This document shows positions 27,120 to 33,866 of a DNA stretch of 64,000 bases, in pieces. Within the stretch, counting starts at the first letter, position 1; the number at the start of each line of letters is the position of its first letter. The stretch spans positions 62,001 through 126,000 of the forward strand of contig NZ_JAFKCU010000008.1 in the NCBI RefSeq assembly GCF_017254845.1, given 5' to 3'. Position numbers and translations under genes: made by a program. The notes beneath the pieces are model-generated. The model ran no database searches and was not told the origin of the DNA. It was given only the letters and a program-made list of their open reading frames with translations. The DNA comes from Algoriphagus pacificus (GTDB lineage Bacteria > Bacteroidota > Bacteroidia > Cytophagales > Cyclobacteriaceae).

Positions 27120-27773
27120 ATGAATAAATCAATTCTGTTTGTAACAAGCTTGCTCACCATCCTGTCCAGCCGTCCTTGCTTCAGCCAAACCCGAACCCCT
27201 GACCTTACAAAAGCTTCCAACTTTAGCGCTTCAAATAGGGAATTTGTACTGGGAAAAGACCAAGATAAAGGTCAGATCATCCAAGTAAAAAGTGCGGAAG
27301 GCCCCGGAGTGGTTTGGCTAGAGAATGTCCTGTTCTCTACCGGAACGCTGGAATTTGATGTGAAAGGTAAGGATGTTATGCAACGGAGTTTTGTAGGGTT
27401 GGCCTTTCATATTCAGAACGACAGTACCTACGAAGCCATCTATTTCCGTCCGTTCAACTTCAACAGCGCTGAAGAATTGCGACGCAGCCACTCGGTTCAA
27501 TACATTTTCTTGCCGCAGTTTGACTGGTTTAATTTACGCGAGAGCCAACCGGGGAAATACGAAAACCCGCTTCCAAAGCCTGTAGATCCAAACGATTGGT
27601 TTCATGTCAAAATCACTATTAGCCATCAGCAGATTCAGGTTTATGTGAACGACTGGCCAACCAAGGTGCTGGATGTAAAACCCATTAATCCGAATGCCGA
27701 CGGAAAATTAGGTTTCTGGGTGGGAAATGGGTCTGACGGCAGCTTTGCCAACCTCCGCATTCAACCTGATTAA
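27120..27773 (+). CDS. Secreted LamG-like (concanavalin-type beta-sandwich) protein
   Basis: A 217-residue protein with a signal peptide ending PCFSQ and a single beta-sandwich similar to LamG/3-keto-disaccharide hydrolase-like domains. Pattern: STGTLEFDVKGKDVMQRSFVGLAFH, then EAIYFRPFNF, and DWFHVKITISHQQIQVYVND with GKLGFWVGNGSDGSFANLRI at the end. No catalytic acid pair is evident, so it could bind a ligand rather than cut it. It starts 186 bp from the divergent membrane regulator and is followed after 31 bp by a longer paralogue, probably in one operon. Confidence 0.75.
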   Translation: MNKSILFVTSLLTILSSRPCFSQTRTPDLTKASNFSASNREFVLGKDQDKGQIIQVKSAEGPGVVWLENVLFSTGTLEFDVKGKDVMQRSFVGLAFHIQNDSTYEAIYFRPFNFNSAEELRRSHSVQYIFLPQFDWFNLRESQPGKYENPLPKPVDPNDWFHVKITISHQQIQVYVNDWPTKVLDVKPINPNADGKLGFWVGNGSDGSFANLRIQPD

Positions 27774-27804
27774 AAAAATCTTAACTATTCAAAAACCAAC
27801 TACT

Positions 27805-29181
27805 ATGAAGAAAGCTATTTCACTTTTTGCCCTCTGTTTTTCCATGAATTGTTTTGCCCAGCAAGTGGAAATGAAAGCAGAAAATTTTGAGATCCCCAAA
27901 CCTGAAAACGTCGAATTCCTAACCTACAAAGGAAAGGAAAGCATGAAGCTTTTGCCGGGTTCGGGGCCGGTAGAAATCAAGAATCTCAGTTTCAAGGACG
28001 GAACAATTGAGTTTGACCAGGAAGCAGGAACACCGGGTTTTGCGATCAGCCTTTATTTTCACCGAAAAGATAATCTGGAGCAGGAGATTGTTTACCTAAG
28101 GCTAAAAGATTTTGATGACCCGCTTTCCAACGAGACCATTCAATATACTACTTATCTGGATGGGGTGAATCTGTGGGATATGCATCCGCATTATCAAGCA
28201 CCTGCTCCCGTGAATTTGAAGGATTGGAACCATCTGAAACTCGTGATAGCAGGAAAGCGGATGAAAGTATACTGCAACGGAAAGGAAGTATTGGATATCC
28301 CCGAGTTGGAAGGTAGAATCAGCGATGGAACCATTGCGTTTGAGGGGAATTCGTATGTGGCAAATCTCTCTGTCAAACCCAACGAGACAGAGGGTCTTCA
28401 CCCTGAAGCCTTACCTGATCTGACAAAATTCCAGTCAAATTACATTCGGGAATGGTCCATGTCTTCACCTCAAAATCTTCCCATAGGCAAAGAAATAACG
28501 CGTGATGATTTTCCTGATGCAGGAGATTTTACAAAAACCATTTCTGCTGAAAGGCTGGGCCTTCTCAATATCACCCGTGAACATGGCATGAGTAAAGAAC
28601 GTCGGGTGATCTGGCTCAAAGCTGAAGTGGAAAGCAAGGTGGCTCAGACTATTGATCTTCAATTGGGGTTCAGTGATGAAATCTGGCTTTTTCTGAATAA
28701 TCAGATGACTTACGTGGATAAAAACCTCTATCTACAGGACATGCAAAAATATCCGCAAGGTCGCCTTTCCATTGAAAACGGAACAGTTCCTCTCCATCTG
28801 AAAGAAGGGAAAAACGTAATCACTGTTGCGCTGGCCAATGATTTTTATGGCTGGGGACTGATGGCCCGCCTCAGAGAAACGGACAACCTGATTTCCATTC
28901 AAAAATACACTCCGCCTCCTGTCGTGTCCATCGAAAATATCAACCAATACCTTGGCACCTACATCACTCAGGCATTTCCGATTACGATGACCTTTACTAA
29001 TGTGGGAGGGAAGCTGTATACAAAAGCCTCAAACCAAGCTACAGATGCACTGGAAATAGCTTACCGAGGCAATCATCTATTTGAGCTGGAAAAGGAAAAC
29101 CTGAAATTTCAATTTAAACCTGAGCAAAACCTCTTGATTTTCACACAGGGTGGGCAGGATTATAAGTTTGTGAAGAAGTGA
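27805..29181 (+). CDS. Secreted LamG-like multidomain protein, paralogue of the preceding gene
   Basis: A 458-residue protein with a signal peptide ending NCFAQ (ATG at 27805; the frame is open upstream inside the previous gene). Residues 25-205 repeat the LamG-like pattern (FKDGTIEFDQEAG, EIVYLRLKDF, DWNHLKLVIAGKRMKVYCNGKEVLDI). Residues about 220-385 form a jelly-roll-like domain with FSDEIWLFLNNQMTYV and GKNVITVALANDFYGWGLMARL, resembling galactose-binding domains. The last 70 residues (NQYLGTYITQAFPITMTF) look like the small beta domain often found at the C terminus of secreted beta-lactamase-family proteins. No catalytic motif seen. The transcript ends in a hairpin just before the 42-bp repeat array. 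Confidence 0.75.
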   Translation: MKKAISLFALCFSMNCFAQQVEMKAENFEIPKPENVEFLTYKGKESMKLLPGSGPVEIKNLSFKDGTIEFDQEAGTPGFAISLYFHRKDNLEQEIVYLRLKDFDDPLSNETIQYTTYLDGVNLWDMHPHYQAPAPVNLKDWNHLKLVIAGKRMKVYCNGKEVLDIPELEGRISDGTIAFEGNSYVANLSVKPNETEGLHPEALPDLTKFQSNYIREWSMSSPQNLPIGKEITRDDFPDAGDFTKTISAERLGLLNITREHGMSKERRVIWLKAEVESKVAQTIDLQLGFSDEIWLFLNNQMTYVDKNLYLQDMQKYPQGRLSIENGTVPLHLKEGKNVITVALANDFYGWGLMARLRETDNLISIQKYTPPPVVSIENINQYLGTYITQAFPITMTFTNVGGKLYTKASNQATDALEIAYRGNHLFELEKENLKFQFKPEQNLLIFTQGGQDYKFVKK

Positions 29182-29224
29182 TTAAATGCAGAGTCTGCTA
29201 AGGCTTTAGATTTGCTTAACGCCA

Positions 29225-29252
29225 GAAAGCCGGGACAAAAGTTCCGGCTTTC
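29225..29252 (+). terminator. Terminator after the LamG-like operon
   Basis: GAAAGCCGG(G)AC pairs with GT(T)CCGGCTTTC across AAAA, followed by TTATTTC. It lies 43 bp past the stop codon and 8 bp before the repeat array. Confidence 0.75.
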
Positions 29253-29260
29253 TTATTTCA

Positions 29261-29553
29261 GTGTTCAACACGCTCCGTTAAGTCCTAAAGACATTAATTA
29301 ATGTGTTCAACATATTCCGGAGAGTCTTTGAGACATTAATTAAAGTGTTCAACACATTCCGGAAAGTCTTTCAGACTATAATTAATGTGTTTAAGACATA
29401 CCTGAAAGTCTTTGAGACGATAATTAATGTGATCAACACTCTACTTTAAGTCTTTAGAAGTAAAATTATAGTGATGAACACTCTCCGTTGAGTCTTCAGG
29501 AGTAAAAGTTAAGTGTTCAACACTTTCCTGAAAAGGCATTAATAATTAGAAAA
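29261..29553. repeat. Seven-copy 42-bp tandem array built of phased palindromes
   Basis: Units begin at 29261, 29303, 29345, 29387, 29429, 29471 and 29513, exactly 42 bp apart, with no indels and decreasing similarity to the right. The consensus is four short palindromes in a row: GTGTTCAACAC, TTCCGGAA, GTCTTTGAGAC (one imperfect pair) and ATTAATTAAT. Their centres fall at about 6, 16.5, 27 and 37.5, that is every 10.5 bp. The array fills the gap between two genes and is not a CRISPR, since there are no spacers. Confidence 0.85.
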
Positions 29554-30024
29554 TTAAATCCCCAATTCTCTCTTCTTTTTCTTAATAAAGGAGCCCATGT
29601 CGCTCATGTCTTTTGTAAAACCTCCAGCCTGCATAAAATGATTGGAAGTGTTAAACCAATGAGTAGTTTCTTTTCCCTTTAACTTGATACTGTAAAGTGG
29701 AGGTGAAACAAATTGGATTTGGGAAATGGATTCAACATCCAACCAATTTACTTTTTCCTTGATTGAACCGGAATTAATTTCGATGGTTTGATCACCCATT
29801 TTAACCCAAACAAATTTATCCTTAATGGCAAAAAAGAGGATTAAGAAAAAGATACCGATCAAAGCAAAAATCAGAGTAATAAATAAATCTTTTTCCATTG
29901 GCTCCCCATTCATTATTATCAGATGGGGATAGAAGTACGAAATAATCGCACTTGTCAAAATTATGATTCCGATTCCTAAAGGAGCAAACTTGAAAAGAGT
30001 ATAAGAAGTTTTATGGCTTTCCAT
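29554..30024 (-). CDS. Two-helix membrane protein with a PH-like cytoplasmic domain
   Basis: A 156-residue protein with helices at about 13-33 (FAPLGIGIIILTSAIISYF) and 48-66 (FITLIFALIGIFFLILFFAI). A beta-rich domain follows (VWVKMGDQTIEINSGSIKEKVNWLDVESISQIQFV) resembling small bacterial PH-like domains. Function unknown. Its stop codon directly abuts the last unit of the 42-bp array. Confidence 0.6.
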   Translation of the reverse strand: MESHKTSYTLFKFAPLGIGIIILTSAIISYFYPHLIIMNGEPMEKDLFITLIFALIGIFFLILFFAIKDKFVWVKMGDQTIEINSGSIKEKVNWLDVESISQIQFVSPPLYSIKLKGKETTHWFNTSNHFMQAGGFTKDMSDMGSFIKKKKRELGI

Positions 30025-33075: not shown

Positions 33076-33621
33076 CGTCATTGCGAGCGCAGCGTGGCAA
33101 TCCAGATTAAAAGTTCGAGATTGCCACGTCGGCTTTTGGCCTCCTCGCAATGACGTCTAAATAGCGATTTCACTATTTTATTCCTTGTAAAAGCACCGTC
33201 ACTGCGAGCGAAGCTTGCGGAGCGAGGCAGTCTCGTTAAATAGCTGAAGATTACCACTTCTGCTTTTGGCCTATTCGCAAGTGAGTATTAAAATACGAGA
33301 TTGCTTCGTCGTACCTCCTCGCAATGACGGTCCGAATCGGTTTGTTTTCGTCATTGCGAGCGTAGCGTGGCAATCCAGATAAATAGTTCGTGATTGCCAC
33401 GTCGGCTTTTGGCCTCCTCGCAATGACGTCTAAATAGCGATTTCACTATTTTATTCCTTGTAAAAGCACCGTCACTGCGAGCGAAGCTTGCGGAGCGTGG
33501 CAGTCTCGTTAAATAGCTGAAGATTACCACTTCTGCTTTTGGCCTCCTCGCAAGTGAGTACTAAAATACGAGATTGCTTCGTCCTACCTCCTCGCTATGA
33601 CGGTCCAAATCGGTTTGTTTT
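33076..33621. repeat. Two tandem copies of a 273-bp cell of inverted-repeat elements
   Basis: CGTCATTG heads recur at 33076, 33349 and 33622, exactly 273 bp apart. Each cell starts with an 80-bp imperfect hairpin (for example 33076-33155): outer arms CGTCATTGCGAG/CTCGCAATGACG and inner arms TGGCAATC/GATTGCCA. A second, diverged hairpin and a half element follow. The two cells differ only by scattered substitutions. No gene is seen from 33059 to 33895. Confidence 0.85.
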
Positions 33622-33866
33622 CGTCATTGCAAGCGCAGCGTGGCAATCCAGATAAATTTATCGAGATTGCTTTGTCATTCCTCTTCGCTATGAGGTACTA
33701 AAACTTGAGATTGCTTCTTCGTTCCTCCTCGCAAATACGTTTCAAAATTTATTTTTTTAGGAGCGGGATTAAAATATTGCCGTCACTGCGAGTGGAGCTT
33801 GCGGAACTTGGCAGTCTAGTTAAAATAACTCGAGATTCCTTCGGTCGTTCCTCCCTCTCAATGACG
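33622..33866. repeat. Partial, degenerate third cell of the repeat block
   Basis: Begins CGTCATTGCAAGCGCAGCG like the preceding cells but diverges after about 40 bp. It contains further eroded heads and tails (CGTCACTGCGAGTGGAGC at 33781; a tail ending TCAATGACG at 33866). It ends 30 bp before the GIY-YIG stop codon. Confidence 0.7.

Follow-up and report, generated by a model that had tools for sequence, protein, structure and literature searches.

The tandem array described here lies in a 64,000-nucleotide stretch of DNA (the window, meaning the whole of the stretch analysed), and is the gene-less partner of a cassette found at C1 in the same genome, in which a 159-aa gene is followed by a terminator-like hairpin and an array of the same type. 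Similar arrays stand downstream of related genes in 15 genera, and same-type partners occur in many genomes. What is kept across the arrays is a period of two helical turns (21-22 bp), accompanied in 41 of 61 arrays by an excess of dyad symmetry, while the sequence is free. In the tests made, no known family matched either the protein family or the design of gene, terminator, array and distant partner, and the arrays together with the gene family hint at an undescribed protein-DNA system.

Architecture and symmetry of the window array

The array and its immediate surroundings comprise the following features:

27727..29181, plus strand: upstream ORF, 484 aa as listed (the true start may lie inside), with a weak 3-keto-disaccharide hydrolase match
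29212..29256, plus strand: TTGCTTAACGC stretch and terminator-like hairpin, stems about 29224-29233 / 29244-29253; a near-copy precedes the C1 array
29261..29533, no strand: gene-less array of thirteen 21-bp half units (6.5 x 42 bp), free of indels and with a dyad axis every 10.5 bp
29534..29553, no strand: second half of unit 7, decayed, as judged from the sequence
29554..30024, minus strand: convergent 156-aa ORF on the far side of the array, without a family match above cut-off

A first-pass annotation had read this region as seven 42-bp units. The constant period without indels stands, but only 6.5 units are present, as unit 7 decays after its first half, and the majority consensus of the 42-bp unit, GTGTTCAACACATTCCGGAAAGTCTTTAAGACAATAATTAAT, differs at two bases from the one given earlier. 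Furthermore, the half units GTGTTCAACACATTCCGGAAA and GTCTTTGAGACATTAATTAAT resemble each other, and the elementary period is therefore 21 bp, the 42-bp unit being 2 x 21 bp.

When the units are aligned, axis scores peak at 16.5 (equivalent to 37.5) with 0.546 and at 6.0 (equivalent to 27) with 0.545, the third-best axis scoring 0.375. These are the four palindrome centres that had been proposed, and the symmetry exceeds that of shuffled units, since among 3000 column permutations only 1 did as well as the top score; in a second symmetry test, which used arms of 10 bp, the observed value was equalled or exceeded by 1 of 60 permutations. Complementary pairs make up 89% of GTGTTCAACAC, 57% of TTCCGGAA, 63% of GTCTTTGAGAC and 71% of ATTAATTAAT, against a baseline of 26-33% for segments of 8-11 bp taken at all offsets in the array, and GTGTTCAACAC with at most one mismatch has nine matches on the two strands of the window, all inside the array, against 0.81 expected. 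From left to right, the seven units hold 15, 15, 16, 13, 11, 12 and 12 complementary pairs of 19, in agreement with the earlier description of symmetric left and eroded right units. The phasing of palindromes at 10.5 bp, on which that description centred, is likewise present, but it is a consequence of the 21-bp period (the halves beginning GTGTTCAACAC.. and GTCTTTGAGAC.. are related) and of a dyad, and no separate finding: given a 21-bp period and one dyad, a second dyad must by geometry lie 10.5 bp away.

A gene-linked counterpart in the same genome

When the whole genome was searched with the window array, one other strong place emerged, C1:282749-283024, with 74% identity over 276 bp and likewise in 42-bp register. 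The two arrays have a leader in common, TTGCTTAACGC..GAAAGCCGGGAC.AAAGTTCCGGCTTT, with its terminator-like hairpin, and TTGCTTAACGCNNGAAAG, with zero mismatches, occurs genome-wide only ahead of the window array and ahead of the C1 array. At C1 the 159-aa gene is immediately followed by terminator and array; in the window the same pair stands behind the unrelated 484-aa ORF, which is outside the array-linked gene family and whose hydrolase match falls below the Pfam cut-off. No relative of the 159-aa gene was found in the window. Neither the family of genes with arrays nor the status of this array as a gene-less partner could have been shown by the first-pass annotation, which was made from the letters alone.

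The genome carries three gene-linked arrays (at C1, C12 and C23), each with one gene-less partner of its own type:

Partner of the C1 array: the window array, 74% identity
Partner of the C12 array: C1:570425-570657, 73% identity
Partner of the C23 array: C38:113412-113644, pieces of 81% and 69% identity

Elsewhere in the window, a 273-bp repeat containing CGTCATTGCGAG..GGCAATCC stretches is present in 2.2 copies at 33076-33670, and a stretch similar to it adjoins the gene-less array in locus L199.

A gene family with downstream arrays

The gene family is patchily distributed in the Bacteroidota: relatives of the 159-aa protein are present in 30 of 395 genomes and in 24 of 73 in the genus (Algoriphagus, going by named matches), often in several copies (2-5). 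From these, 83 gene rows were collected, one broken gene making up two rows. Arrays were scored by the best self-match (autocorrelation) at lags 8-100 in the 600 bp downstream of each gene, with a threshold of 0.52 that was chosen after the control values had been seen. This lag maximum replaced a cosine-comb period statistic, which penalises arrays with sharp lag peaks and by which 37 of 82 genes exceeded the maximum of shuffled controls.

A downstream array, with an autocorrelation of at least 0.52, is present in 60 of the 83 rows, starting at a median of 92 bp past the stop and having a median length of 234 bp. The best lags of these 60 positives and of the window array are 21, 42, 43, 44, 62, 63, 64, 84, 85, 87 and 88 only; thus the periods of related arrays, whose variation would have made the phasing look accidental, stay at multiples of 21-22 bp both in the C1 copy and in the other arrays detected. 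Among the 23 rows below threshold are broken genes, along with several that narrowly miss it at a lag of 21 or 43. Upstream of the genes, the best lag is 21, 42, 63 or 84 in 6 of 82 regions, none of which reaches 0.52. A terminator-like hairpin lies between the stop and the array in 56 of the 83 rows, and in many Algoriphagus loci AAGTTGC and CTTAACGC/CTTAACAC/CTTAATGC recur between the stop codon and the terminator. Related ORFs are found behind the array at four loci (L052, L106, L113 and L123), those at L052 and L106 resembling Vsr-type mismatch endonucleases.

In 400 kb of control DNA from the same genome, 8 of 1300 overlapping chunks reach 0.52, two of them representing one gene-less array (C1:570.4 kb), and in 400 kb from a relative lacking the gene the number is 10 of 1300, the cases at lags 14, 21 and 28 looking like 7-bp repeats. 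In an earlier control, 4 of 271 chunks scored 0.5 or more, two of them being the window array and a third a 7-bp repeat. Arrays of 7-bp repeats (for example CTCTTGG/TTCTTGA), which are a separate kind of repeat and also give lags 14, 21 and 28, were seen in one genome (G009) at L168, L178 and L179 and in the window's own genome at about 1550-1605 of L007.

These comparisons bear on whether the arrays are a mutational by-product, that is, functionless tandem repeats produced by slippage or unequal crossing-over. Units are related within an array, and partner arrays differ in places by one unit in length, as such processes would have it. However, hardly any arrays of this kind occur in control DNA, those found have a fixed place after one gene family, and a period near two helical turns is held over 15 genera together with a dyad excess, so that this origin is scarcely credible.

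Geometry is kept while sequence varies

The sequence of each array is specific to its locus, as illustrated by GTATCTCCTGAGATACGAAAAGA in L055, the 22-bp AACTTGTTTATTAAACAAGTTA in L138 and CGGGTAGGTTCGGAAGGTACC in L085, and many arrays carry one A-tract per 21 bp. Dyad excess, defined as at most 3 of 60 column permutations being as good, was observed in 41 of 61 arrays, where about 4 would be expected; in 20 of the 61 no permutation was as good, and 20 lack a clear excess. In the 41 symmetric arrays, complementary pairs have a frequency of 0.41-0.67 over ten positions from the axis against 0.26 by chance, values that are somewhat inflated by the choice of axes for best score. Pairing within units is not higher than pairing between units (36 of 61 arrays, P 0.29), in a test that picked the axis on the cross-unit score and so leans against finding compensation; neither unit-by-unit compensation nor exact compensation within units was found, and the symmetry therefore lies in the consensus.

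The palindromes had also been read as a possible extended RNA structure. A structured RNA, formed by either strand or by both as one long hairpin or a series of hairpins, would agree with the folding of the window array, each strand of which gives a better fold than any of 200 shuffles (z -4.6 and -4.0). The fold excess, however, follows from dyad symmetry alone and is expected of any dyad-symmetric array. Complementarity, moreover, extends to the central pair (0.44-0.52 versus 0.26 by chance), where a hairpin needs a loop, the array usually lies behind a terminator, and an Rfam search of the window array returned no family at threshold, the best score being 26.9 bits against 249 required and the top scores amounting to less than a tenth to a third of what the gathering thresholds demand. 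On this evidence an RNA is a very improbable product of the arrays.

Coding of heptads was considered and rejected as a general reading, as lags of 43, 44, 62, 64, 85 and 88 occur, none of which is a multiple of 3, and in-frame stops recur in the window units, although some frames are open in single arrays. Mechanically called ORFs of 84-118 aa traverse some arrays (for example L154 4432-4686 and L199 1325-1606) and were not taken as genes, because periodicity readily keeps a reading frame free of stops. At their 3' side, arrays whose bodies differ in sequence finish in similar G-rich 21-bp units like GAAGTGGGAGGGGGTACTTC, examples being L069, L052, L055, L071 and L079 and the gene-less L215, L219 and L225; the strict pattern is present in 5 of 83 gene loci, with more recognisable by eye, and the window's own genome has two exact copies of the end unit, both at the C23 array.

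Constant helical phase combined with varying sequence, and the A-tract per 21 bp of many arrays, would also suit a general nucleoid protein binding the arrays, or curved or phased DNA acting by its shape, with the neighbouring gene linked for some other reason; phased sequence is an established route to DNA curvature. Such an explanation leaves unaccounted for both the constant link to one gene family and the same-type partners, and we consider it distinctly unlikely.

Similarity among arrays does follow that among the proteins (Mantel rho 0.35, reached by 0 of 500 permutations): similar arrays are found in 1% of pairs with less than 30% protein identity and in 14 of 14 pairs with at least 80%. 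Upstream flanks show the same rise with protein identity, so common descent explains part of the correlation. Some arrays, nevertheless, are alike though the upstream flank hardly matches, as in L065/L070 (array 113, flank 30) and L002/L141 (68 and 22).

Partner arrays in other genomes

Of the remaining 57 positive arrays, 28 from other genomes were tested, using two joined queries. A remote array of the same type was found in the own genome for 11 of the 28 (4 of the 14 tested from Algoriphagus, 7 of the 14 from other genera), and no partner was found for the other 17; with the window's own genome included, 14 of 31 gene-linked arrays have a same-type partner. Both arrays tested in G088, an assembly of 4 contigs, are partnered, and for L024, a third gene-linked array of G052, a remote relative was reached via the array of a sister species.

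When 23 gene-less arrays were compared with the gene-linked set, 15 had their best match in their own genome. Some bias attaches to this figure because the queries included own arrays, although every genome in a batch faced the same 14 queries. The other 8 match the type of another genome better; for instance, L023 in G044 is of the window's array type, though the only gene detected in G044 has a different type. In addition, a very uniform gene-less 42-bp array (L222 of G043, about 1365-1665, self-match 0.96) does not match the gene-linked array of its own genome. No remnant of the gene family was detected at E <= 1 near any of the 23 gene-less arrays. Partner identities are mostly 68-83%, so the partners are old, and period and axes have been kept.

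One possible source of gene-less arrays is a mobile or selfish cassette, in which gene, terminator and array move and duplicate together, incomplete copies remain as gene-less arrays, and the whole serves the spread of the element and not the cell. The patchy distribution with often 2-5 copies per genome, the array pairs that are alike without a flank match, and the cassette terminator retained by the window array where the gene is lacking all speak for mobility. So does the neighbourhood of the loci, within 1.5 kb of which no conserved gene was found, the largest cluster comprising 6 loci and presumably being of the secretion-sorting-domain type. Against it, no transposase, recombinase or terminal repeat was identified with the family, and the partners are old, with period and axes intact. 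We regard a mobile or selfish cassette as unlikely.

The family protein

The proteins of the family, about 158 aa long and with a median pI of 5.2, combine a core that is acidic, at a median net charge of -6, with a basic C-terminal tail, whose charge is positive in 54 of 57. Their sequence is conserved across the family, while the array sequences differ widely. No consistent family match was obtained in Pfam, NCBIfam, PHROGs, PADLOC or PDB, nor a convincing match to any DNA-binding family in the profile databases searched. Isolated weak hits, each to one member of 20, were to NikA-like (E 0.0035), TacA1 (0.12), Arc-like PHROG (0.024) and MobA (0.12) families, all of which we take to be ribbon-helix-helix proteins; weak and scattered as they are, these hits offer only a lead towards that possible fold; other, unrelated families score similarly. 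Gag_p15, matched by 3 of 20 members with a best E of 0.00024, was set aside as chance. Anti-phage defence families in PADLOC gave no consistent match, a single family being hit by 1 of 20 members (E 0.0024). The C1 protein had no match at 1e-5 in phages and plasmids, and A1 had none in viral contigs; a Thiodictyon plasmid gave one protein hit of 32% (E 0.004) with no array behind it. An AF2 model built from three close sequences was all-helical with a pLDDT of 41, and was not used.

A proposed role for arrays and protein

We propose that the array is a DNA platform for the cooperative binding of a dimeric protein, most probably the family protein, with the possibility that loci are bridged; we give this reading an even chance of being right. 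Each dyad axis, one per 10.5 bp, would seat one two-fold symmetric protein unit, and a row of such units would line one face of the helix. The likeliest ligand would be the product of the neighbouring gene, because this small protein is the constant neighbour of the array; its acidic core and basic tail also count in favour of the proposal. In gene-linked cassettes transcription would usually end at the terminator, with the array beyond it, an order suggesting that the array functions at the DNA level, beyond the transcript of the gene. Gene-less arrays of the same type, that of the window included, may be further sites for the same protein; the partners of the same type point to an action at two or more loci, and the gene locus and the distant locus might thereby be gathered or bridged. 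The one-face dimer platform of the first-pass annotation has gained from the survey, fitting the retention of 21-22 bp and the dyad excess in 41 of 61 arrays, but was drawn too narrowly; binding, there as here, is inferred, as would be any role in chromosome organisation. Conservation of the protein alongside divergent arrays counts against the platform reading, and the ligand could be something else. The lack of a convincing match to a DNA-binding family, the 23 gene rows below threshold, the 20 arrays without clear dyad excess, the lack of unit-by-unit compensation and the 17 arrays for which no partner turned up count against it as well.

A bolder and somewhat unlikely form of the proposal is a motor-less pairing of chromosomal loci, in which each small protein would recognise and gather the self-specific, helix-phased palindromic array behind its own gene and one or a few distant arrays of the same type, and paralogous cassettes within a cell would have diverged into separate address codes that do not cross. 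If the platform reading is right, many Bacteroidota would carry cassettes in which the geometry of DNA (two helical turns, two-fold axes) is conserved and the sequence is not, and in which distant chromosomal sites hold partners matching the gene-linked array, an unnoticed means to mark, and perhaps join, chromosomal loci, and one that would furnish ready-made specificity pairs for tests of protein-DNA co-evolution. Should the protein turn out not to be the ligand, a period of 21-22 bp held over 15 genera with free sequence would still make a clean natural test of helical phasing.

Comparison with known systems

A word search of the open-access literature found no paper on such arrays. BIME/REP elements and other interspersed palindromic repeats are intergenic, palindromic and often placed after terminators, but the units here are in tandem, phased at two helical turns, linked to one small-protein family and locus-specific in sequence. 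In ToxIN, a type III toxin-antitoxin system, a small gene, a terminator and a tandem array also occur together; there the array comes before the gene and is transcribed, whereas here it follows gene and terminator, and its period tracks the DNA helix.

In layout, plasmid centromeres are the nearest known systems. Type Ib systems such as pSM19035 omega-parS and TP228 ParG-parH have 7-bp iterons or tetramer boxes, are plasmid-borne and use a ParA-type motor. ParR is described as binding, in a cognate-specific way, repeats of 10, 11, 17 or 20 bp that differ between families (PMC9426499), the ParR-parC repeats being 11 bp in R1, 10 bp in pB171 and 20 bp in pSK41 (PMC9426499; PMC5016525). Type II and Ib centromeres are described as arrays upstream of operons with motors, and type Ib centromeres as arrays of short repeats with pseudo-two-fold sites, lying at more than one place per replicon (PMC5016525). 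Type II ParR-parC resembles the cassette in combining a small protein with nearby tandem repeats on one helical face, of a sequence that differs between families, and the helix-phased tandem sites of ParMRC and ParABS have their counterpart in the cassette arrays.

The differences are equally plain. Where parC lies upstream and is accompanied by a motor gene, and ParMRC and ParABS have their centromere upstream, the cassette array lies 3' of its gene, the upstream regions are without arrays, and no recurrent motor gene of the ParA, ParM or TubZ type was found within 1.5 kb of the loci. In the assemblies seen, moreover, cassette arrays are chromosomal, number several per genome and have distant gene-less partners. 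Judged by this analogy, the cassette, with its centromere-like layout, may work like a plasmid centromere, yet it is not filed here as a centromere system.
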